Below, piece by piece: positions 5,982 through 15,574 of a stretch of DNA of 64,000 nt (its first letter is position 1; the number at the start of each line of letters is the position of its first letter). Made by a program: the position numbers and the translations under genes. Where the stretch lies: contig NZ_CP040751.1 of the NCBI RefSeq assembly GCF_008001235.1, forward strand, positions 2,091,001 through 2,155,000. Reading direction: 5' to 3'. The notes below the pieces were generated by a model. That model had not been told where the DNA came from, ran no database searches, and saw nothing but the letters and a program-made list of their open reading frames with translations. The stretch is from Salidesulfovibrio onnuriiensis. GTDB taxonomy: Bacteria > Desulfobacterota > Desulfovibrionia > Desulfovibrionales > Desulfovibrionaceae.

Positions 5982-7604
5982 TTAGAGGAACATGTACACG
6001 GCCGCCAGCCCGGTCAGGGACATGGTAATGGTGTACGGAAGAGCCAGGAGAACCATGCGCCCGTACGACAGACGGATGACGGGCGCAAGAGCACTTGTCA
6101 GCAGGAAGAGGAAGGCCGCCTGGCCGTTGGGGGTCGCCACGGACGGGATGTTGGTGCCCGTATTGATGGCGACGGCCAGTTTGTCGAAGTGCTCCATGAT
6201 CTCCTTGACCTGTACGGCGGCGCCCTGCGGCAGGGTGGAAAGTACATCCGCCCGCGCCACATGGGCGTCCGTCAACCTGTCCATGAGTGCTTGGCCACTC
6301 ATGCCTATCCCGGGGATGGCGTCCAGCACGTGAACAAAGTGAAGTTTGGTTTCCGAAATATAGACGGTGGCCACGAAGACGTTGTCCGAAATGGAGGACA
6401 GCAGTCCGTTGGCAACATAGTAGGCTGCAAGCTGGCTGTGCCCTTGCAGGCCCAGCACATACCCGATGATCGGGGCGAACAGCTCCTGGGAATGGATCAC
6501 GGCCACCACGGAGAAGAAGACCACCAGCAGGGCCGTGAACGGCAGGGCCTCTTCAAAGGCGTGGCCGAGCTGATGCTCCTCGGTGATGCCCGTGAACGAG
6601 GTGAGCAGCACGATGACCGAGAGGCCGATGAGACCCACTGCCGCGAGGTGAAAGGCCAGGGCCGCGATGAGCCAGATGCCGGTGACGGCCTGGATGACCA
6701 GTTTGATCCTGCCGCGCTGGCCCTGCTTTTCCTCCATCTGTATGGCGGTTTCCAGCAGGAAGGACCGGATGTTGCCCGGCAGTTGCGCGCCGTAACCAAA
6801 GAGCCCGAATTGCTCCACGGCGAGGCAGGTCAGCATGCCCACCACGAGAACGGGCATGGTCACGGGCATGGCGTGCAGGAAGAACGGGATGAAGTGCCAG
6901 CCCATTTCGCCGCCCACCAGCAGGTTCTGCGGCTCGCCCACCAGGGTGCAGACCCCGCCGAGGGCCGTGCCCACCGCGCCGTGCATCATCAGGTTGCGCA
7001 GGAACTTGCGGAATTCGCGCAGCTCCTCGCGGTTCTTTTCCTTGATGCTGTCGTCCGAGCTCAGGTCGTGGGTGTCCCCGTAGCCCTTGCCGGAAACGAA
7101 CCGGTGATAGACATTGTAGAAGCCGTAGGCCACGGCCATGATTACCGCCGTCACGGTCAGTGCGTCGAGGAATGCGGAAAGGAACGCGCCCGCGAAGCAG
7201 AACAGCAGGGCGATGGCCTTTTTGGAGCGGATGCGCACCAGGATGCGGGTGAAAGTGAACTGCAGGAAGTCCTTCATGAAGTAGATGCCCGCCACCATGA
7301 AGATCAGCAGCAGGATGACCTCAAAGTTCTTGTGGGCCTCGTGGTAGACCGTTTCCGCAGTGGTCATGCCCAGGGCAACGGCTTCGAGCGCCAGCAGGCC
7401 GCCCGCGGGAAGCGGGTAGCATTTCAGGGCCATGGCCAGGGTGAAGATGAATTCCGCGATCAACGCCCAGCCCGCGATGAACGTCCCGGCGGTGTACATG
7501 AGCACCGGGTTGAGGATGAGAAAGGCCACAATGACCAGCTTGTACCAATCCGGCGCATCGCCGAGAAAGGTTTTCGCAAAGGTTTGCGTCAACGAAGGTT
7601 TCAT
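5982..7604 (-). CDS. nhaB: Na+/H+ antiporter NhaB
   Basis: This 540-residue polytopic protein exchanges cytoplasmic Na+ for external protons. It begins DAPDWYKL, has some twelve hydrophobic segments, and carries stretches characteristic of NhaB such as [31 protein letters not shown] and [13 protein letters not shown]. Length and overall pattern match NhaB rather than NhaA or NhaD. A good Shine-Dalgarno (AAGGAG) precedes the ATG, but a terminator-like hairpin sits directly upstream of that site. It lies downstream of a second ion transporter and a stress-like protein on the same strand, suggesting a salt or pH homeostasis group. Confidence 0.93.
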
Positions 7605-7758: not shown

Positions 7759-9558
7759 CTAGTAGAAGAGCATCAGCGCGGTAATCATGACCACCATGTA
7801 GATGACGGTCATGCCTGCGCCGCTGCGCACATAGTCTATGGTCCGGTATCCGCCGGGCCGCATGATCAGGGCGTTGACCTGGTGGGTCGGCAGCACGAAG
7901 GTGTTGGACGCCGCCACGGCAACGGTCAGGGCCGCCACGCGCGGGTCCACCCCGGCGTTGATGGCCATGTTCATGGACAGCGGCACCAGCAGGACCGTTG
8001 CACCCACGTTGGATGCGACCAGCGTGAAGAACGAGGTCAGGATGCCGATGACCGTGAGAAGCACCACCGGCGTCGGCGTGCCCAGGGCGGCCATGATGCT
8101 GTCCGCGATGAACTTGGCGGCGCCGGTGTTCTCGAAGGCCATGCCCAGCGGAATCAGGCCGCCCAGCAGGAAGACCGTCATCCAGTCCACGGACTGGTAA
8201 GCCTCGTCAATGGTCAGGACCTTGGTGAGCACCATGCCCAGCGCGCCTGTCAGGAGCGCAATGGAAAGCTGGACGTGGAAGCCCAGGATCATGACCAGGG
8301 CAATGCCCAGCCAGAGCAGGGCCAGCTTCGCCTTTTCCGTGCGCAGCAGTTCGCCCTTGATGGTCTCGGTGAAAACGAGGTCCGGCAGCCCCTTGAGCAT
8401 GTGGAACATTTCCCAGCGCCCGTGCAGCAGCAGGGCGTCGCCCGGTTCGATGACGATATCGATGAGGCCGCTGACAAAGAGCTTGTCACCCCTGAAGATG
8501 GCCAGAGGGGAAACCTGGAAGCGTTCCCTGATCCGAAGGTCGGCCAGGGTCTTGCCCATGAATTCCGAGCGGGGCGTCACGATCCCTTCCATGATCCCCG
8601 CGTTGTTGGGAGAGAGTTCCTCCGCGAAAGACGTCAATTCAGGTTGGAGGGCCCAACCCATGTCTTCCGCCATGTGTTCGACGAATTCCCCGGGACCGAC
8701 CACAACAAGATGGTCGCCGGGCTGTATGGTTTCCTGCGCGTTGGGGGCGAACAGGTGGCTGTTGCCTCCGTTCCTGGCGATAGCCACCAGGGTGCAGAAG
8801 TATGTGGGCCGCAGCGCCAGTGCGCGGAGCGGCTCGTCCCGTTCCCAGGTGTCGGGAACGTGCAGTTCGAAGAGCGAGCCCACGTTGCTGTAGGTGCTGG
8901 CCAGCACGGACGACATGGGGCCGGAGTTTTCATCCTCGGCCCTGTTGGGCAGTATGAAACGGCCAAACAGGATGAAGTAGACCAGAGCCGCCGCAATGAG
9001 CAGCAGGCCCACCGGGGTGACGCTGAACAGGCCGAAGGCTTCGTAGCGCGTTCCGCCCACCACCATGAGGTCGTTGAGCAGGATGAGCGGGCTGGAGCCC
9101 ACCAGGGTGAGACAGCCGCCGATGATGGCGCAGAAGCCCATGGGCATGAGCAGACGTCCCACGGGAACGCCCGTCTGATTGCCGATGCGCTTGGCCGCCG
9201 GCAGGAACAGGGCGGCGGCGCCGATGTTTTGCATGAAGCCGGAAATGATAGCCACTGTTCCGGCGATGAGGGTCATGATCCGTGATTCGCTCTTGCCTGC
9301 GAAGCGGAGAATGATGCGGGCCATGGAGTTCATGACGCCGGTCTTGTCGAGTCCCGCGCCGATGATGATCACCGCGATGATGGAGACCACGGCGTTACTG
9401 CTCAGTCCGCTGATGGCCTGTTGCGGCGTGACCAGACCCAGCAGGGGCAGGAGCACCATCATGATGATGCCCACGACATCGACCCGGACCCATTCGAAGA
9501 TGAACAACAGGACAGCAAAAAAGAGCACGGCCATAACCGTAATGATTTCGGGGGTCAT
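7759..9558 (-). CDS. SLC13/DASS-like transporter with two central TrkA-C (RCK_C) domains
   Basis: The 599-residue membrane protein has an N-terminal helix bundle (about 1-190), a soluble middle (about 215-390) and a second bundle (about 400-599). The membrane parts match the SLC13/ArsB-type permease fold (GSSPLILLNDL, NVGATVLLVPLSMN). The middle contains two TrkA-C-like segments (ARNGGNSHLFAPN...IQPGDHLVVVG and SPLAIFRGDKLFVS...IEPGDALLLHG), which sense ligands in K+ and anion transporters. Substrate is uncertain; dicarboxylate, sulfate and other anions are possible. It follows the stress-like gene by 46 bases and precedes nhaB, so the three may be co-transcribed. Confidence 0.85.
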   Translation of the reverse strand: MTPEIITVMAVLFFAVLLFIFEWVRVDVVGIIMMVLLPLLGLVTPQQAISGLSSNAVVSIIAVIIIGAGLDKTGVMNSMARIILRFAGKSESRIMTLIAGTVAIISGFMQNIGAAALFLPAAKRIGNQTGVPVGRLLMPMGFCAIIGGCLTLVGSSPLILLNDLMVVGGTRYEAFGLFSVTPVGLLLIAAALVYFILFGRFILPNRAEDENSGPMSSVLASTYSNVGSLFELHVPDTWERDEPLRALALRPTYFCTLVAIARNGGNSHLFAPNAQETIQPGDHLVVVGPGEFVEHMAEDMGWALQPELTSFAEELSPNNAGIMEGIVTPRSEFMGKTLADLRIRERFQVSPLAIFRGDKLFVSGLIDIVIEPGDALLLHGRWEMFHMLKGLPDLVFTETIKGELLRTEKAKLALLWLGIALVMILGFHVQLSIALLTGALGMVLTKVLTIDEAYQSVDWMTVFLLGGLIPLGMAFENTGAAKFIADSIMAALGTPTPVVLLTVIGILTSFFTLVASNVGATVLLVPLSMNMAINAGVDPRVAALTVAVAASNTFVLPTHQVNALIMRPGGYRTIDYVRSGAGMTVIYMVVMITALMLFY

Positions 9559-9604: not shown

Positions 9605-10207
9605 CTATTTGGCCCGCAACGTTGCACGGGTATAGACGGGAATGACCTTCCTGTTTTTGCAGGTCACGACGGTATCGTCCATGACGTAACGGAAACGGGC
9701 GTCTTCCTGGTGCATGGTTCCGATGACGGTTTCCTCGTCACCGTGACGCACTTCATGGGAAAAGAGCAGCCCTGCCGTGGTGGCCCGGTCCGAGAACCTG
9801 TCGATGTTTTCCTTGGCCCTGGCCTGGAATCCGTCGAAGTCCCTTCCGGTGGTATCGAGGTTGAGGGCGACCAGGTCGCTCCGTGTCTTGGCGGCCATGT
9901 CTATGGCATAATCCATGACGCCGTCGGAAAAAGCGTATCCCTTACAGACGACAAGGATTTTGCAGCGGGTGCGTTCGCTCCGCACGGCCTGGGTTTCGTT
10001 TGATTGCTGTACGCTCTCGGCAGTTGCTCCGCGGGTGCCGACGAGCCGTTTGATGAGTGCCATCATAGAACATCCTCCTGATGTTTCCGTGAAGTGCTGT
10101 TCGCGGCCGATGACCCACGCTCCCACATGACAGGTGTTGCAGTTTGTCTCGGCCATTGCCTCGTAATGCCTGTTCACCATGTTTTTTACAGCGCTGAAGA
10201 GAGCCAT
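9605..10207 (-). CDS. Universal-stress-like protein with uncertain start
   Basis: The C-terminal about 130 residues resemble an alpha/beta universal-stress-like fold: a first strand KILVVCKGYAFSD, then an alternating pattern ending in VIPVYTR. Two starts are plausible. The longest frame (200 residues, start 10207) has GAGGAG eight bases upstream. An internal Met-Met at 10066 has AGGAGG seven bases upstream and would give 153 residues, a normal length for this fold. The extra 47 residues include CNTCH, a CxxCH haem-type motif, but no export signal. Position upstream of two ion transporters suggests a salt or energy-stress role. No ATP-binding GxxGxxxxGS loop is visible, so the family call is tentative. 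Confidence 0.6.
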   Translation of the reverse strand: MALFSAVKNMVNRHYEAMAETNCNTCHVGAWVIGREQHFTETSGGCSMMALIKRLVGTRGATAESVQQSNETQAVRSERTRCKILVVCKGYAFSDGVMDYAIDMAAKTRSDLVALNLDTTGRDFDGFQARAKENIDRFSDRATTAGLLFSHEVRHGDEETVIGTMHQEDARFRYVMDDTVVTCKNRKVIPVYTRATLRAK

Positions 10208-10774
10208 GCCTTACTCCTCTTTTTTGGGGTTTGGAGATAATGTCTCTGCCTCTCGAAGCTCTTATGATCAAAACGCATGCCAAGACTTTTTTTACTGTTA
10301 ACATATTGAAATTACATGATTGAGTTTTTGTTTTGCGAGTGATGTGCCTTTGAGGTGATGCGTATTGCAACGGCGTATGGGGCAAGCGCCGGCCTGGAGC
10401 GGGAACTCGGCGGAAAAATGAAAAGCAGGCTGTTTCAGAATGCAACGGTGGAAAAGGGTACTGATATATATAGTAGAACCGTGGGGTGGAAAACAGATGT
10501 GTTCGGCATGATTAAATTGAATTGTTCATTTTTTCTCAAAATATATCATTTTATATTTCAATATATTGGCATTGGTGTTTTTCGTCGGAGAGCCCCGGCT
10601 GCTCCTGTTCGGGAGCTCGGTTGGGGGAACGGGCGGCAGGCGTTGCAATGTGCAACCTTAACAGGCTGACGGCGGCGTGATATATAAGAATGATTAGCAA
10701 AAGCCGTGGCGGGCGCTCGGATCAGCCGGTCACGTTTCTTTGGATACCGACAGCATGCCGGGAGGCGAAAGAGA
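10208..10774. other. AT-rich divergent intergenic region (567 bp)
   Basis: This region separates the minus-strand stress/transport genes from the plus-strand receiver-Lon gene. Its middle (about 10440-10570) is very AT-rich with runs such as GATATATATAG. It holds one TGATCA site (10265) and a candidate promoter close to the receiver-Lon gene. The short open frames in it have no ribosome site or protein-like composition. Confidence 0.7.
10658..10686 (+). promoter_or_regulatory. Candidate sigma70 promoter for the receiver-Lon gene
   Basis: TTAACA and TATATA are separated by exactly 17 bases, followed by AAG. Transcription would begin near 10693, leaving a leader of about 80 bases. No heat-shock-type (CTTGAAA) element was seen. 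Confidence 0.45.
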
Positions 10775-12850
10775 ATGGGCTGGTTCAATATCAGAAAAGG
10801 GACTGCTTCGGACAATGCGCCTCGGGAAGGGGAAGACCTGGAACAGCGGCAGAAACAGGCGCCGCCTCCTGCCGAGCATGAGCTGCTGCGCCACAGGCTG
10901 GAGGATGCGGGGCTGCCGGACGAAATCCACGAGGCCGCGCTCGCCGAGTGCGAGAGGATGGCCGGGACCGATCCCTCGTCTCCGGAATACGCCATCGGGT
11001 TCAACTATCTCGAATTTCTTCTTTCCCTGCCTTGGAACACCACGACCAAGGATGATCTGGACATCATCCGGGCGGAAAACGTGCTCAATGCGCGACACCA
11101 TGGCCTGCAGCGGGTCAAGGACCGGATTCTCGAATTCCTGGCGGTGAAGAATCTGCGCGGGAAACACACCCCCACGATCCTGCTGGTGGACGACGAGGCC
11201 ATTGCCCGCGAGAACCTGACCATTGTTTTCGAGAACGACGGGTATGAGGTCACCGCCGTGGCCAACGGGCTGGAAGCCGTGAAGGCCATGGAGAAAAAGC
11301 CCTCGGACGTGGTCGTCTCGGACCTCAAGATGGACGGCATGGACGGGCTGGAACTGCTCAAGGTCTTGCGCAAGCGCTGGCCGGACACCAAGGTCATCAT
11401 GCTGACCGGGTATGCAACGGTCAAGACGGCCGTGGACGCCATGCGTCAGGGGGCCGACCAGTATCTGGGCAAACCCGTCAACCTGACCAAGCTGCGGGCC
11501 CTTGTGCAGGAGATGCTGGAGCAGAGCCTGCGCGCGCAGCAGTTGCACGGTCCGGTGCTTTGTTTCACCGGCCCTCCCGGCACCGGGAAGACCTCCATCG
11601 GAAAGGCCATTGCCGAAGCTTTGGGAAGGAAATTCTTTCGACTGTCCCTAGCCGGGCTGCGTGACGAGGCCGAGCTGCGGGGTCACCGGCGGACCTATGT
11701 GGGCGCAATGCCCGGGCGGATCCTGCAGGGCATCCAGAAGGCGGGAGCGAGGAACCCCGTCATCATGCTGGATGAAATGGACAAGGCGGTGCAGGATTTC
11801 CACGGGGACGCCACGGCCGTGCTGCTCGAACTGCTCGACCCCGAGCAGAACGCCGCTTTTGTCGACCACTACATGGGCTTGCCCTTTGATCTTTCGGGTG
11901 CGCTGTTCATCTGCACGGCCAACGCGGTGGAGCGGCTCCCGGCGCCGCTGCGCGACCGTATGGAAGTGATCGAGTTCTCCAGCTACACCCGGCCGGAGAA
12001 ATTCGAGATCGCCACCCGCTATCTCATACCCGAACAGCTTCGGCAGCACGGGCTTGACGACCGGCTGGTGAGCGTGGAGCCGGACGCGGTGACGGCCATC
12101 ATCATGCATTATACCCGCGAGGCAGGGCTGCGGGGACTGCGCAAGCAGCTGGCCTCATTGTGCAGGAAGCTGGCCCGGCAGGTGCTTTCGGAAGGAGGCA
12201 AGAGCCTGGCGGTGGATGCGGCCATGGCCGAAAGGCTGCTGGGGCCGCCGCCGTACTCTTCGACCTCGGCCCAGACAGAAGCCAAGGTCGGCCTGGCCAC
12301 CAGCCTGGTCTGGACCGAAAACGGCGGGGAGATCATTTTTGTGGAGACCGCCAGGATGCAGGGCAGCAAACAGCTCATTCTGACGGGGTCCCTGGGCGAG
12401 GTGCTTCGGGAATCGGCCCAGACCGCCCTTAGCTTCATCCGCAGCCACGCGGAACATTTCGGCATTGCCCCGGACTTTTTCGAATCCTCGGATATTCACG
12501 TGCATATCCCGGCCGGAGCCGTCACCAAGGAAGGCCCGTCCGCCGGGGTGGCCATCACCCTGGCGCTTCTTTCCCTGCTGACCGACAGGCCGGTTCGTCG
12601 CGATGTGGCCCTGACCGGGGAGCTTTCCCTGCTGGGGGAAGTCCTGCCCGTGGGCGGCATCCGGGAAAAGCTCATGGCCGCGCAGCTGGCGGGAATCTCC
12701 ACCGTGATTCTGCCCAAGGGATGCGCTGCGTCCGTGGCTTCCATGGAGGACGAGGTGGTGCAGGACCTTGAGGTGCACCTGGTTTCCACCATGGAGGAGG
12801 CTGCGGACATCGCGCTGGAAAACGAAGTTATTCCAGATCGTAACGCTTGA
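10775..12850 (+). CDS. Lon-family ATP-dependent protease with inserted response-regulator receiver domain
   Basis: This 691-residue protein combines the Lon helical neck (GFNYLEFLLSLPWN, then QRVKDRILEFLAVK), a complete CheY-like receiver (about 132-250), the Lon AAA+ module and the Lon serine-lysine protease domain. Receiver residues are D139-D140, phospho-acceptor D183, T211 and K233. AAA+ motifs are GPPGTGKTS (K272) and VIMLDEMDK (D333-E334). The catalytic dyad is S589 in KEGPSAG and K632 in GIREKL, 43 residues apart as in E. coli Lon. The large N-terminal substrate-binding domain of LonA is absent. The start at 10775 is set by GGGAGG; a start 69 bases upstream lacks one. Phosphorylation of the receiver could control proteolysis (inference). 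The 3' end overlaps the convergent regulator gene by 23 bases. Confidence 0.93.
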   Translation: MGWFNIRKGTASDNAPREGEDLEQRQKQAPPPAEHELLRHRLEDAGLPDEIHEAALAECERMAGTDPSSPEYAIGFNYLEFLLSLPWNTTTKDDLDIIRAENVLNARHHGLQRVKDRILEFLAVKNLRGKHTPTILLVDDEAIARENLTIVFENDGYEVTAVANGLEAVKAMEKKPSDVVVSDLKMDGMDGLELLKVLRKRWPDTKVIMLTGYATVKTAVDAMRQGADQYLGKPVNLTKLRALVQEMLEQSLRAQQLHGPVLCFTGPPGTGKTSIGKAIAEALGRKFFRLSLAGLRDEAELRGHRRTYVGAMPGRILQGIQKAGARNPVIMLDEMDKAVQDFHGDATAVLLELLDPEQNAAFVDHYMGLPFDLSGALFICTANAVERLPAPLRDRMEVIEFSSYTRPEKFEIATRYLIPEQLRQHGLDDRLVSVEPDAVTAIIMHYTREAGLRGLRKQLASLCRKLARQVLSEGGKSLAVDAAMAERLLGPPPYSSTSAQTEAKVGLATSLVWTENGGEIIFVETARMQGSKQLILTGSLGEVLRESAQTALSFIRSHAEHFGIAPDFFESSDIHVHIPAGAVTKEGPSAGVAITLALLSLLTDRPVRRDVALTGELSLLGEVLPVGGIREKLMAAQLAGISTVILPKGCAASVASMEDEVVQDLEVHLVSTMEEAADIALENEVIPDRNA

Positions 12851-14159
12851 TCTTTCGCCAGAGGGAGACCCGGTCTATCCCGAGAATGCGCGCGGCCTGG
12901 GTCTTGTTTTCCCCGGATGCGGCCAGCACCTTGCGGATATGGGCCTTTTCCACGTCCTCCAGGGTGGCCAGCGGCGCGTCGGTCTGGGCGTCGCAGACAT
13001 CCCTGGGCAGCAGGTCCGGCGTGAATGTGGAGCCCTGGCCCAGCGCCAGGGCGCGCTGCACGATGTTTTCCAGCTCACGCACATTGCCCGGGAACGGGTA
13101 GCGCATGAGGATGTCCAGGGTGTCCTGTGCGATTGAGGTGATGGTCTGGCTGGGCTGCCTGTGTTTTTCCAGGAAATGGCCGATGAGGATGGGAACGTCC
13201 TCCCGGTGCTCCCGCAGCGGGGGAGCCTGGAGGGTGACCACGTTGAGGCGGTAGTAGAGGTCCTGGCGGAAGTCACCCTGTTCCACCAGTTCGCGCAGGT
13301 CGCGGTTGGTGGCGGCCACCACCCGGATGTCCACGGGGATTTCCTTTGTCCCGCCCACGCGCAGGAAGGTTCGTTCCTGGAGCACTCGCAGCAGTTTGAC
13401 CTGCATGTTCAGGGGCAGCTCGCCGATTTCGTCGAAAAAGACCGTGCCGCCGTCCGCGACCTCGAGAATTCCTTTCTGCCCCCGGTTGGCCCCGGTGAAG
13501 GCCTCTTTCTCATGGCCGAACAATTCCTTGTCCATGAGTTCGGCCGTGAAGGTCCCACAGTTGATGGCCATGAACCGTTCCTCGGAGCGCTGGCTCAACT
13601 GGTGGATGCCCTGGGCCACGAGTTCCTTGCCCGTCCCGGTCTCTCCCTGGATGAGCACGTTGCAGTTCATTTGGGCCAGCTGCCGTACGGTTTTCTTGAG
13701 CCGGACAAAGGAGTCGCTCTGGCCCACGAAGGGAAAATCGTTCTTGCCCTGGGCCACGATCTCCCGGAGCCGCAGAACCTCCCTGGAAAGGGCCTGCCGC
13801 TCCAGGGCCTTGGTCACCTGGAGGCGCAGCTCTTCGAGGTTGATGGGTTTCTCTATGTAAGAGTGCGCCCCTTTCTGCATGGCCTGCACCGCGTTCTGGA
13901 CCGAGGCGTGGCCCGTCACCACGATGACCTCGGTGGAAGGGTGCTGGGCCCGGGTGCGCTCCAGCAGGGCGATGCCGTTGACTCCGGGCAGCATCAGGTC
14001 GGTGATGACCAGCTCGTAATCCCGTTTCTCGAGTTCCTGCAGTCCTTCTTCGGCGGAGATGACGGCCGTGACGGTGTGGCCCTCGTTGCCCAGTACATGG
14101 GTCAGGTTTTCCCGCGCAATGTGCTCGTCTTCCACCACGAGTATGGATGCGGCGCTCAT
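12828..14159 (-). CDS. Sigma54-dependent response regulator (NtrC family)
   Basis: The 443-residue protein has a receiver (E10-D11, phospho-acceptor D54, K104), a sigma54-activating AAA+ domain (about 143-370) and a Fis-type helix-turn-helix (KTQAARILGIDRVSLWRKI). Walker A is GETGTGKE (172-179) and Walker B FFDEIGEL (241-248). The sigma54-contacting loop reads EAFTGA (219-224) rather than the usual GAFTGA. It overlaps the sensor-kinase stop by four bases (ATGA), so the two form a translationally coupled two-component pair. Its receiver resembles that of the neighbouring Lon fusion. Targets are unknown. Confidence 0.95.
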   Translation of the reverse strand: MSAASILVVEDEHIARENLTHVLGNEGHTVTAVISAEEGLQELEKRDYELVITDLMLPGVNGIALLERTRAQHPSTEVIVVTGHASVQNAVQAMQKGAHSYIEKPINLEELRLQVTKALERQALSREVLRLREIVAQGKNDFPFVGQSDSFVRLKKTVRQLAQMNCNVLIQGETGTGKELVAQGIHQLSQRSEERFMAINCGTFTAELMDKELFGHEKEAFTGANRGQKGILEVADGGTVFFDEIGELPLNMQVKLLRVLQERTFLRVGGTKEIPVDIRVVAATNRDLRELVEQGDFRQDLYYRLNVVTLQAPPLREHREDVPILIGHFLEKHRQPSQTITSIAQDTLDILMRYPFPGNVRELENIVQRALALGQGSTFTPDLLPRDVCDAQTDAPLATLEDVEKAHIRKVLAASGENKTQAARILGIDRVSLWRKIKRYDLE

Positions 14160-15574
14160 GCCAGGCCCTCCTTCATGAGCGGGATTCGGATGTAGAAGGT
14201 CGTTCCCTGTCCCGGCGAGCTCTCGACCCTTATGGTTCCCTGGTGCTTCTCGATGATGCCGTAGACGATGTAAAGCCCGAGGCCCGTTCCCTGGCCCACT
14301 TCCTTGGTGGAGAAGAAGGGGTCGAAGATGCGTTGCAGGGTTTCCGGGGACATGCCGTCGCCGGAGTCCGAAACAGAGATGAGCGCGTACCCCTCTTCGG
14401 GCGCGGCCTGGATTCGTATGGAGCCCTTCCTTTCCCCGATCGCCTGGATGGCGTTGATGATCAGGTTGATGAAGGCTTCCTGGAGCCGTTGCCTGTCCAC
14501 GGACAGGGTCAGGGCATCCGGAACGTTCACGTCCAGGGAGATGCGCGGTCCCAGCTGGCTCGAAACCAGGCGGGCCGCTCCCTGGATCACTGCCTGGAGC
14601 TTGTTCGGCGTGGGGGCGAAATCCTGGTGCCGGGAAAATTCGAGCAGTCCCTTGACGATGTCCCGGGCACGGATGGTTTCCTGGATGATGTTGTCCATCA
14701 TCTTGTCCGAGAACTCGTCCTTGCCCGCAGTGGCCTCCTCCAGGATCTGCGCGGACGTGGAAATGTTGTTCAGGGGGTTGTTCAACTGGTGGGCTATGCC
14801 GGAGGCCAGGGTGCCTATGGAGGAGAGCTTCTGGGCCTGCACGAGCTGGGTCTGGCGTTTCTTCAGCTCATCGACCATGGAGTTCAGGGCCACGAATACC
14901 TGCTGGATCTCGTCGTGGGCGTTGCGGATGGGCAGGGGCACGAAGGTCCCCTGGGCGATCTGGCGTGTGGCTTCCTGTACCTGCCGCAGGGGGCCGAGGA
15001 TGCTTTTGGAAACAAAGATGACCAGGGCGAAAACCACCAGGGCGATGACGCCCATGGAGACGATCAGGGTCATGCGGAGCTTCTGGTTGATGCCCAGGAT
15101 ACTTTCCCGCTCGAACTCGGCGATGGCGCGGGAGTGCTCCACCAGCCTTTGGCCTGTTTCACGCAGTTCTCGGGCGGCGGCATGGTCTTCGGCTATTTTC
15201 CCCTGCCGGAACACTTCGTCTATCTGCGTCAGCAGCGCGCCGTAATGGCTGAGTCCCTGTTGCAGCTTGAGGCCGTGTTCCCTGCCGAGCGGTTGCCCCA
15301 GTTCTCCGGAAAGCGCGTCCAGAGCGGTCAGGGCCTTTTCCAGGTCGGCCCTGCCCTGGGAAAAAAACGCGGTGTCCTTGTACAGGAAAAAGTTTTTCTC
15401 TTCCCGCCGTATCTCCAGGATCAGGTTGCGCAGGTCGTCCGCGTGCTCCACAAGCACCACTTCCTGCTGCAACCGGTTGATGTTGGAAAGGGAGAGCAGG
15501 GCGATGCCGCCAAAGGCGAGCGTGAAGATGACTATTCCGAGAATGATGGTTTGTCTGAGATTCGGTCTGACCAT
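14156..15574 (-). CDS. Membrane sensor histidine kinase
   Basis: The 472-residue kinase has a first transmembrane helix (about 10-30), a helical periplasmic domain of about 140 residues, a second helix (168-188), HAMP (about 190-240), a dimerisation domain with H-box GIAHQLNNPL (phospho-acceptor H262) and a C-terminal ATPase domain with N, G1 (SDSGDGMSPE) and G2 (GTGLGLYIVYG) boxes. The sensory part looks like a four-helix bundle as in chemoreceptors; the signal is unknown. It is the first gene of the pair with the sigma54 regulator, and is likely also to serve the receiver on the adjacent Lon fusion (inference). Confidence 0.94.
   Translation of the reverse strand: MVRPNLRQTIILGIVIFTLAFGGIALLSLSNINRLQQEVVLVEHADDLRNLILEIRREEKNFFLYKDTAFFSQGRADLEKALTALDALSGELGQPLGREHGLKLQQGLSHYGALLTQIDEVFRQGKIAEDHAAARELRETGQRLVEHSRAIAEFERESILGINQKLRMTLIVSMGVIALVVFALVIFVSKSILGPLRQVQEATRQIAQGTFVPLPIRNAHDEIQQVFVALNSMVDELKKRQTQLVQAQKLSSIGTLASGIAHQLNNPLNNISTSAQILEEATAGKDEFSDKMMDNIIQETIRARDIVKGLLEFSRHQDFAPTPNKLQAVIQGAARLVSSQLGPRISLDVNVPDALTLSVDRQRLQEAFINLIINAIQAIGERKGSIRIQAAPEEGYALISVSDSGDGMSPETLQRIFDPFFSTKEVGQGTGLGLYIVYGIIEKHQGTIRVESSPGQGTTFYIRIPLMKEGLA

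Follow-up and report, generated by a model that had tools for sequence, protein, structure and literature searches.

We analyzed a 64,000-nucleotide stretch of Salidesulfovibrio onnuriiensis DNA (assembly GCF_008001235.1, contig NZ_CP040751.1, positions 2,091,001 to 2,155,000; hereafter the window) in which a Lon protease with a complete receiver spliced into its ATPase motor is encoded beside a membrane histidine kinase (HK) and a sigma54-dependent enhancer-binding protein (EBP). We favor, with a probability of roughly 0.6, a scenario in which these genes form a module of the type known from Desulfovibrio vulgaris Hildenborough as DVU3303-3305, with one membrane kinase that would both drive transcription and gate Lon through the spliced receiver. 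Comparative sequence data establish four features that carry this scenario: the architecture of the protease, the constant company that it keeps, the regulatory DNA of a divergent operon, and a kinase-contact helix common to the Lon and EBP receivers. What is new here is the single clade formed by the receiver-Lons, their HK-EBP company, the shared helix, and the palindromes and promoters of the putative regulon, most of these promoters lacking the -12 C, alongside an EBP whose loop reads EAFTGA. A receiver inside the Lon motor would make two-component-driven proteolysis testable with one purified protein, and a phylum-wide map yields a likely regulon, its DNA sites, and a candidate class of signal (anions). 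The value of the system thus lies in an exact splice site, a regulon that can be followed across a phylum, and a testable question of phospho-gating.

A receiver within the Lon motor

The receiver-Lon gene (10775..12850, plus strand) is an open frame for 691 amino acids whose ATG is preceded by GGGAGG. Pfam places Response_reg at residues 135-244 (3.3e-30), AAA at 262-401, Lon_lid at 424-474, and Lon_C at 480-682 (1.2e-71), and the protein scores 677.9 bits against the NCBIfam model for endopeptidase La (TIGR00763), whose cut-off is 608. Neither Pfam nor alignment to Escherichia coli Lon detects an N-terminal LON domain, in agreement with the sequence-only reading of this DNA, which had described a Lon without its large substrate domain; in the AlphaFold model, just ~30 low-confidence residues precede the neck. 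For want of that domain, we regard the protein as a LonA-derived variant and not as a full LonA. It shares the neck, AAA+ domain, lid, and Ser-Lys protease domain with LonA proteins such as E. coli Lon and Bacillus subtilis LonA, but differs from them in the missing substrate domain and in the receiver spliced into the AAA+ module. LonB and LonC also carry inserts in the AAA+ domain, but theirs lie elsewhere and consist of membrane or helical segments.

The sequence-only reading had placed a complete receiver between the neck and Walker A; that placement is correct and can be refined to a point inside the AAA+ module, equivalent to E. coli Lon 342/343. Residues 30-126 of the window protein align with E. 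coli Lon 246-342 and residues 253-684 with 343-774. Because the alignment resumes at 343 directly after 342, no residues were lost at the splice. Alignment to B. subtilis Lon leaves a single residue between the two blocks, an almost equally clean break, and the same picture emerges from comparison with four ordinary Lons of relatives and the two that this genome itself encodes. In sum, ~245 N-terminal residues are gone and ~125 residues have been inserted without loss. On the plus strand, the neck and first AAA+ helix (residues 34-127; 10874..11155), which align to B. subtilis Lon (3m6a) and E. coli Lon, are followed by the receiver recognized by Pfam and AlphaFold (residues 134-250; 11174..11524) and by the Walker A motif GPPGTGKT (residues 266-273; 11570..11593). 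The helix HHGLQRVKDRILEFLAV thus precedes the receiver, and strand beta1 and Walker A follow it. An AlphaFold model built from 20 sequences (mean pLDDT 82.6, pTM 0.69) runs the AAA helix through 112-129 and, four residues later, begins receiver strand beta1 at 134-138; receiver helix alpha5 ends the domain at 237-257, three residues before AAA strand beta1 at 261. Foldseek ranks LonA structures first for this model (6u5z). With both receiver ends tied to the ATPase core, mechanical coupling between the two is plausible in the model.

All catalytic parts are present: an AAA+ domain with Walker A and Walker B, a lid, and the S16 Ser-Lys dyad. The Lon_C protease domain (residues 480-682; 12212..12820, plus strand) holds S589 (12539-12541) and K632 (12668-12670), and the phosphoacceptor D183 lies at 11321-11323. 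We compared 68 receiver-Lon loci, comprising the window and loci of relatives (70 were collected and two truncated ones dropped). D183 occurs in 67 of these proteins, S589 in 68, and K632 in 67, the absences being alignment gaps, and G266, K272, and T273 of Walker A are found in 68/68. The receiver pocket D139/D140/D183/T211/K233 is kept in 65 to 67 of the 68 (K233 in 67; T211 in 65, with Ser in two). Judged by sequence, the pocket, ATPase, and protease residues are intact, as the sequence-only reading had stated with correct numbering of D183, S589, and K632. Elsewhere in the same 3.89-Mb genome, two frames of 826 and 852 amino acids match Lon strongly and represent ordinary Lons, and two further Lon_C matches are weaker.

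A single clade in constant two-component company

Surveyed across genomes, as the sequence-only reading had proposed, the fusion and its HK-EBP neighbors both recur. A full or nearly full receiver-Lon is present in 21 of 59 genomes sampled from the family (the window's own included), and a 22nd (G022) has a contig fragment covering the neck and receiver; two congeners in this sample lack the protein. At the level of the phylum, where the best six candidates per genome were scored, a neck-receiver-P-loop match (E <=1e-40) was found in 51 of 395 genomes and 38 of 246 genera, one match each, with 48 matches reaching the P-loop and 3 ending earlier. Recurrence of the same fusion in 51 phylum genomes argues that the architecture is not a product of chance. 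In a tree with 20 ordinary Lons, the 66 receiver-Lons (of the 68) that could be trimmed group as a single clade separate from them (support 0.998), and independent fusions are rejected on this basis. Named carriers are two uncultured Desulfovibrio metagenome-assembled genomes (MAGs), a Pseudodesulfovibrio MAG, Desulfopila sp. IMCC35008, and a marine proteobacterial MAG; in the remaining 75 of the 80 loci retained by the scan for named carriers, no receiver-Lon was seen. Two loci depart in small ways: in L242 (genome G063, which is fragmented) the receiver-Lon is divided over two open reading frames (ORFs), and in L040 a stand-alone receiver-like ORF (9672-10211), whose best score is against receiver-Lon (93 bits), stands immediately before the protease gene.

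That a membrane kinase and an NtrC-type regulator adjoin the protease is borne out by Pfam and by the coordinates. The EBP (12828..14159, minus strand) is of the NtrC/AtoC type, with Pfam matches to a receiver, a sigma54 AAA+ domain, and a Fis-type helix-turn-helix, and with a sigma54-contact loop that reads, by alignment, EAFTGA, a variant of GAFTGA. The HK (14156..15574, minus strand) has two hydrophobic segments, a probably helical periplasmic sensor, HAMP, HisKA, and HATPase_c. Both genes lie on the 3' side of lon and converge upon it, the lon and EBP ORFs overlapping by 23 bp, and the genome has one Sigma54_DBD match for rpoN (6.9e-62). Across the 68 loci, the script places an HK-EBP pair no more than 8 kb from the receiver-Lon in 51, and the number rises to 53 when overlapping-ORF artifacts in L046 and L050 are read by eye; at loci flanked on each side by 5 kb or more the counts are 46 of 56 and, so corrected, 48 of 56. 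No pair surrounds any of 20 ordinary Lons, one of which (L264) has a lone kinase, and chance co-location of the trio is rejected on this basis. Gene order within the trio varies among loci from convergent to operon. Co-occurrence extends to whole genomes. Of the 21 family genomes with receiver-Lon, 20 also encode an EBP that scores 429 bits or more, versus 1 of the 38 without it (Fisher 1.5e-13); this cut was set with the list already in view, and each genome contributed at most its 29 best candidates. The exception is G037 (429.3 bits) and the miss G005; G022, with its fragment, was counted as without Lon.

The two receivers of the window also resemble each other where a kinase would bind. 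Among 93 other receiver matches in the genome, the partner EBP is the best hit of the Lon receiver (102 bits, the next scoring 84). Helix alpha1, the main kinase-contact helix of receivers, is 67% identical between Lon (AIARENLTIVFENDG) and EBP (HIARENLTHVLGNEG) whereas none of 31 of the closest other receivers exceeds 40%; in most other receiver segments the partner EBP does not stand out. This shared helix, together with the co-occurrence of HK, EBP, and receiver-Lon, makes it probable that one kinase serves both receivers, as first suggested for this locus from its sequence.

The divergent operon and its regulatory DNA

Upstream of lon, a divergent operon on the minus strand begins with a small Usp-like protein (9605..10207), identified by a profile match and an alpha/beta model and without a Pfam match. 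It continues with an SLC13-like CitMHS/TrkA_C anion transporter (7759..9558, Pfam) and, as the third gene of the set, an NhaB Na+/H+ antiporter (5982..7604, Pfam). The 567-bp gap between this operon and lon contains three GTTGC-N5-GCAAC sites at no more than one mismatch. Two are candidate upstream activating sites, GATGC-N5-GCAAC (10357..10371, plus strand) and GTTTC-N5-GCAAC (10432..10446, plus strand), for a sigma54-like promoter directed toward the Usp-like operon, TGGCATGCGTTTTGAT (10267..10282, minus strand), whose -12 element reads GA and not GC. The third, GTTGC-N5-GCAAC (10642..10656, plus strand), is one of three exact copies in the genome. It directly precedes a sigma70-like lon promoter, TTAACA-N17-TATATA (10658..10686, plus strand), which was aligned and judged by eye; a similar element with an abutting palindrome stands at the same place in four close relatives. 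Our guess is that this third palindrome may serve repression or autoregulation of lon.

The same arrangement recurs in 43 divergent regions, defined by a cluster-3 gene at no more than 1.2 kb; that cluster (52 loci) mixes Usp-like proteins, a two-helix membrane protein, and spurious ORFs, some regions start at another gene, and L052 gave no promoter. We found 79 palindromes in these regions, located in 36 of them, versus 0.35 expected from base shuffling, and a sigma54-like promoter (at least 10 of 11 positions) toward the Usp side in 40 of 43, versus 0.68 expected. Five aligned relatives guided the relaxation of the GG-N10-GC pattern at -12; the window and L036-L039 therefore give no independent evidence for the promoter pattern or the palindrome. 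By hand count at no more than two mismatches, 34 of the 43 regions have a palindrome centered 82-88 bp upstream of -24, and 32 have a second one 157-176 bp upstream of it. Genome-wide, the palindrome has 132 sites at no more than one mismatch (56 for the backward pattern), 3 of them exact; among the sites listed, which extend to ~2.86 of 3.89 Mb, the window holds the sole cluster of three. On these counts a dispersed regulon read from the palindrome alone was rejected, and given this background we restrict our claim to the local operon.

The content of the operon is also recurrent. A Usp-like profile built from 15 proteins matches at 58 of 68 receiver-Lon loci, in 53 of them upstream and divergent, and at 0 of 20 control loci with ordinary Lons; tandem Usp genes are frequent at receiver-Lon loci. 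The transporter is TauE/SafE at 28 loci and CitMHS/TrkA_C at 18, never both, with neither at 22. NhaB matches also occur at L036-L038, L051, L086, and L087, with a weak one at L039. The Usp-like protein of the window and its close relatives carries a CNTC.VG motif near the N terminus. A small two-helix membrane protein is encoded near the Usp-like protein or fused to it in 38 of 68 loci (e.g., L045, 10604-10915); the fused form is seen in L198 (6636-7622), L220 (6901-7704), and L229, and the protein accompanies TauE in 26 loci and CitMHS in none.

The proposed circuit weighed against its alternatives

We propose that an HK with a conserved periplasmic sensor would phosphorylate both the EBP receiver and the Lon receiver. 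The phosphorylated EBP would bind the two phased palindromes and, with sigma54, activate the Usp-like/anion transporter/NhaB operon, while phosphorylated receiver-Lon may change its activity or its choice of substrate. Control of Lon by the receiver is proposed because the domain is clamped between two pieces of the ATPase just ahead of Walker A and would take the place of the missing N domain.

The trio is not without precedent. Similar trios had been suspected in Desulfovibrio, and DVU3303-3305 bears this out: these D. vulgaris genes were called a possible three-component system in 2011 (PMC3333781). Proteolysis controlled by a Lon fusion had also been called little described, which overstates the novelty of a trio published in that year. 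PMC3333781 maps DVU3305 to its own operon and to DVU3302-3298, notes stress induction, and proposes that DVU3303 may need phosphorylation for protease activity; with PMC10102598 it also reports orthologues of the regulator in some other sulfate reducers, Thermodesulfovibrio, Thioalkalivibrio, and Dechloromonas, most with a lon-protease response regulator. The D. vulgaris set matches ours in its HK, its sigma54 response regulator, and its response regulator with a lon protease, as well as in a neighboring operon with UspA-type and membrane/transporter genes, which in the window has candidate activator sites. It differs in being an operon, whereas lon is convergent to EBP-HK in the window, and in its EBP loop, which is GAFSGA in DVU3305 (PMC4641369, 2015) and EAFTGA here; orthology rests on description. 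We regard the window trio as a well-conserved member of a known, little studied system, in which the circuit first read from the sequence, with one kinase signal controlling both sigma54 transcription and degradation, is credible.

Several observations weigh against the proposed circuit. Cognate Lon-EBP pairs are 0.536 identical in alpha1 versus 0.510 when shuffled (54 loci, unrelated EBPs at L240 and L241 included; 40 of 5000 shuffles reach the cognate value), so slight an excess that it points to a family-wide signature more than to strain-level matching. The partner in this comparison is the best-scoring EBP per locus and not always the nearest; at L044 the alpha1 match is closer for the nearest EBP (0.53 vs 0.40). 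No HK-EBP pair is detectable in 8 of 56 well-flanked receiver-Lon loci, and no sigma54-like promoter points toward lon in 42 of the 43 divergent regions, one being present in the remaining region. Mutants in DVU3303, DVU3304, and DVU3305 have cofitness >0.9 (PMC10102598, 2023), and all three gain in chlorate, where DVU3299 is needed and the mutant of the regulated transporter loses fitness. Were DVU3305 a simple activator of DVU3299, like signs would be expected in chlorate, and the opposite is observed; the explanation would be either that some further regulon member does harm in chlorate or that the EBP acts as a repressor under that condition. The cofitness of lon may itself reflect polarity within DVU3303-3305, which is described as an operon; the convergent order in the window avoids this problem of D. 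vulgaris genetics. Finally, we found no phosphotransfer, ATPase, or proteolysis data on any receiver-Lon member among the openly licensed papers searched, judged by their titles and abstracts.

A more ambitious version of the circuit, which we hold only tentatively and judge somewhat less probable than its negation, makes receiver-Lons a class of AAA+ proteases whose motor would be gated by a phosphorylated domain before Walker A. A single membrane kinase, which may sense anions in the periplasm, would switch transcription and degradation together, and EAFTGA/DAFTGA loops would have changed together with promoters that lack the -12 C. The sensor (window 14990-15574, compared with 46 related kinases) keeps the marked residues of LExRRxEKNxxLY, Y111, R138, and G141 in 44 to 47 of 47 sequences. 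It has no Pfam match in the window HK; 4HB_MCP_1 is weak in 4 of 6 members (best E 3.4e-4) and HBM appears in 1 of 6 (0.0092), the best solved chain is a histidine kinase (7.5e-4), and the sensor is probably helical. Its conserved basic residues, the anion-transporter regulon, and the chlorate phenotype together suggest an anion signal. As for the promoter, the -12 C is kept in 4 of 41 good promoters (A in 21, G in 8, T in 8). In the genome, candidate promoter sites of the form TGGCAYN5TTGCW are enriched (20 vs 1 for the backward control), whereas TGGCAYN5TTGDW sites are not (18 vs 15). The genome has 28 strong EBP matches; their 21 readable loops are GAFTGA in 18, GSFTGA in 2, and acidic in 1, the window EAFTGA. 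By comparison, acidic loops occur in 26 of 55 loci when the best EBP of each is taken (EAFTGA 20, EAFSGA 1, DAFTGA 5), the others being GAFTGA 15, GAFSGA 6, GSFTGA 2, AAFTGA 1, and 5 unread. A 2007 paper reportedly concerned with GAFTGA and promoter conformation makes, by its title, a link between loop and promoter attractive. Within the family, however, the -12 base shows a weak correlation and no clear covariation with the loop (C in 2 of 7 GAFTGA loci and 2 of 28 other called-loop loci). The NorR data on GAFTGA in PMC2941729 concern the second glycine, and for that reason we do not use them as precedent.

An unlikely competitor holds that the receiver is a docking platform that binds a substrate or adaptor in place of the N domain, so that phosphorylation would change partners and not the motor; the EBP itself might be held, receiver to receiver. 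To our knowledge, phosphorylation control of AAA+ proteases is known mainly via separate adaptors, and RssB and CpdR, phosphorylatable receivers that steer ClpXP as adaptors, show the principle; there the receiver controls an AAA+ protease in trans, whereas here it stands in cis within the motor. The absence of the N domain from receiver-Lon fits this explanation, as does helix alpha5, which is 43% identical between Lon and EBP versus at most 36% in 26 of the closest others. The alpha4-beta5-alpha5 face also resembles that of the partner EBP, a likeness reached by 1 of 31 others, and across the 54 loci cognate pairs score 0.518 versus 0.498 when shuffled (1 of 5000 shuffles). For a mere platform, however, a position within the AAA+ fold with attachment at both ends would be odd.

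More doubtful still is negative feedback, in which receiver-Lon would degrade the EBP, the HK, or the Usp-like protein and so end the response. The constant company of these genes is consistent with such a loop, as is the palindrome next to the lon promoter, seen in the window and four close relatives. In Caulobacter, Lon degrades and controls the receiver protein FixT of the FixLJ pathway (PMC7078487), a case in which Lon and a receiver likewise belong to a shared two-component pathway but not, as here, to a single chain. Feedback nevertheless predicts opposite signs for lon and EBP mutants, and the three D. vulgaris mutants behave alike, unless lon insertions are polar. Although the lack of a published functional test in the openly licensed literature leaves some room for a receiver that is a phosphate sink or relic on a constitutive protease, this is very improbable in view of pocket residues kept across the phylum and of the HK-EBP pair as constant company.

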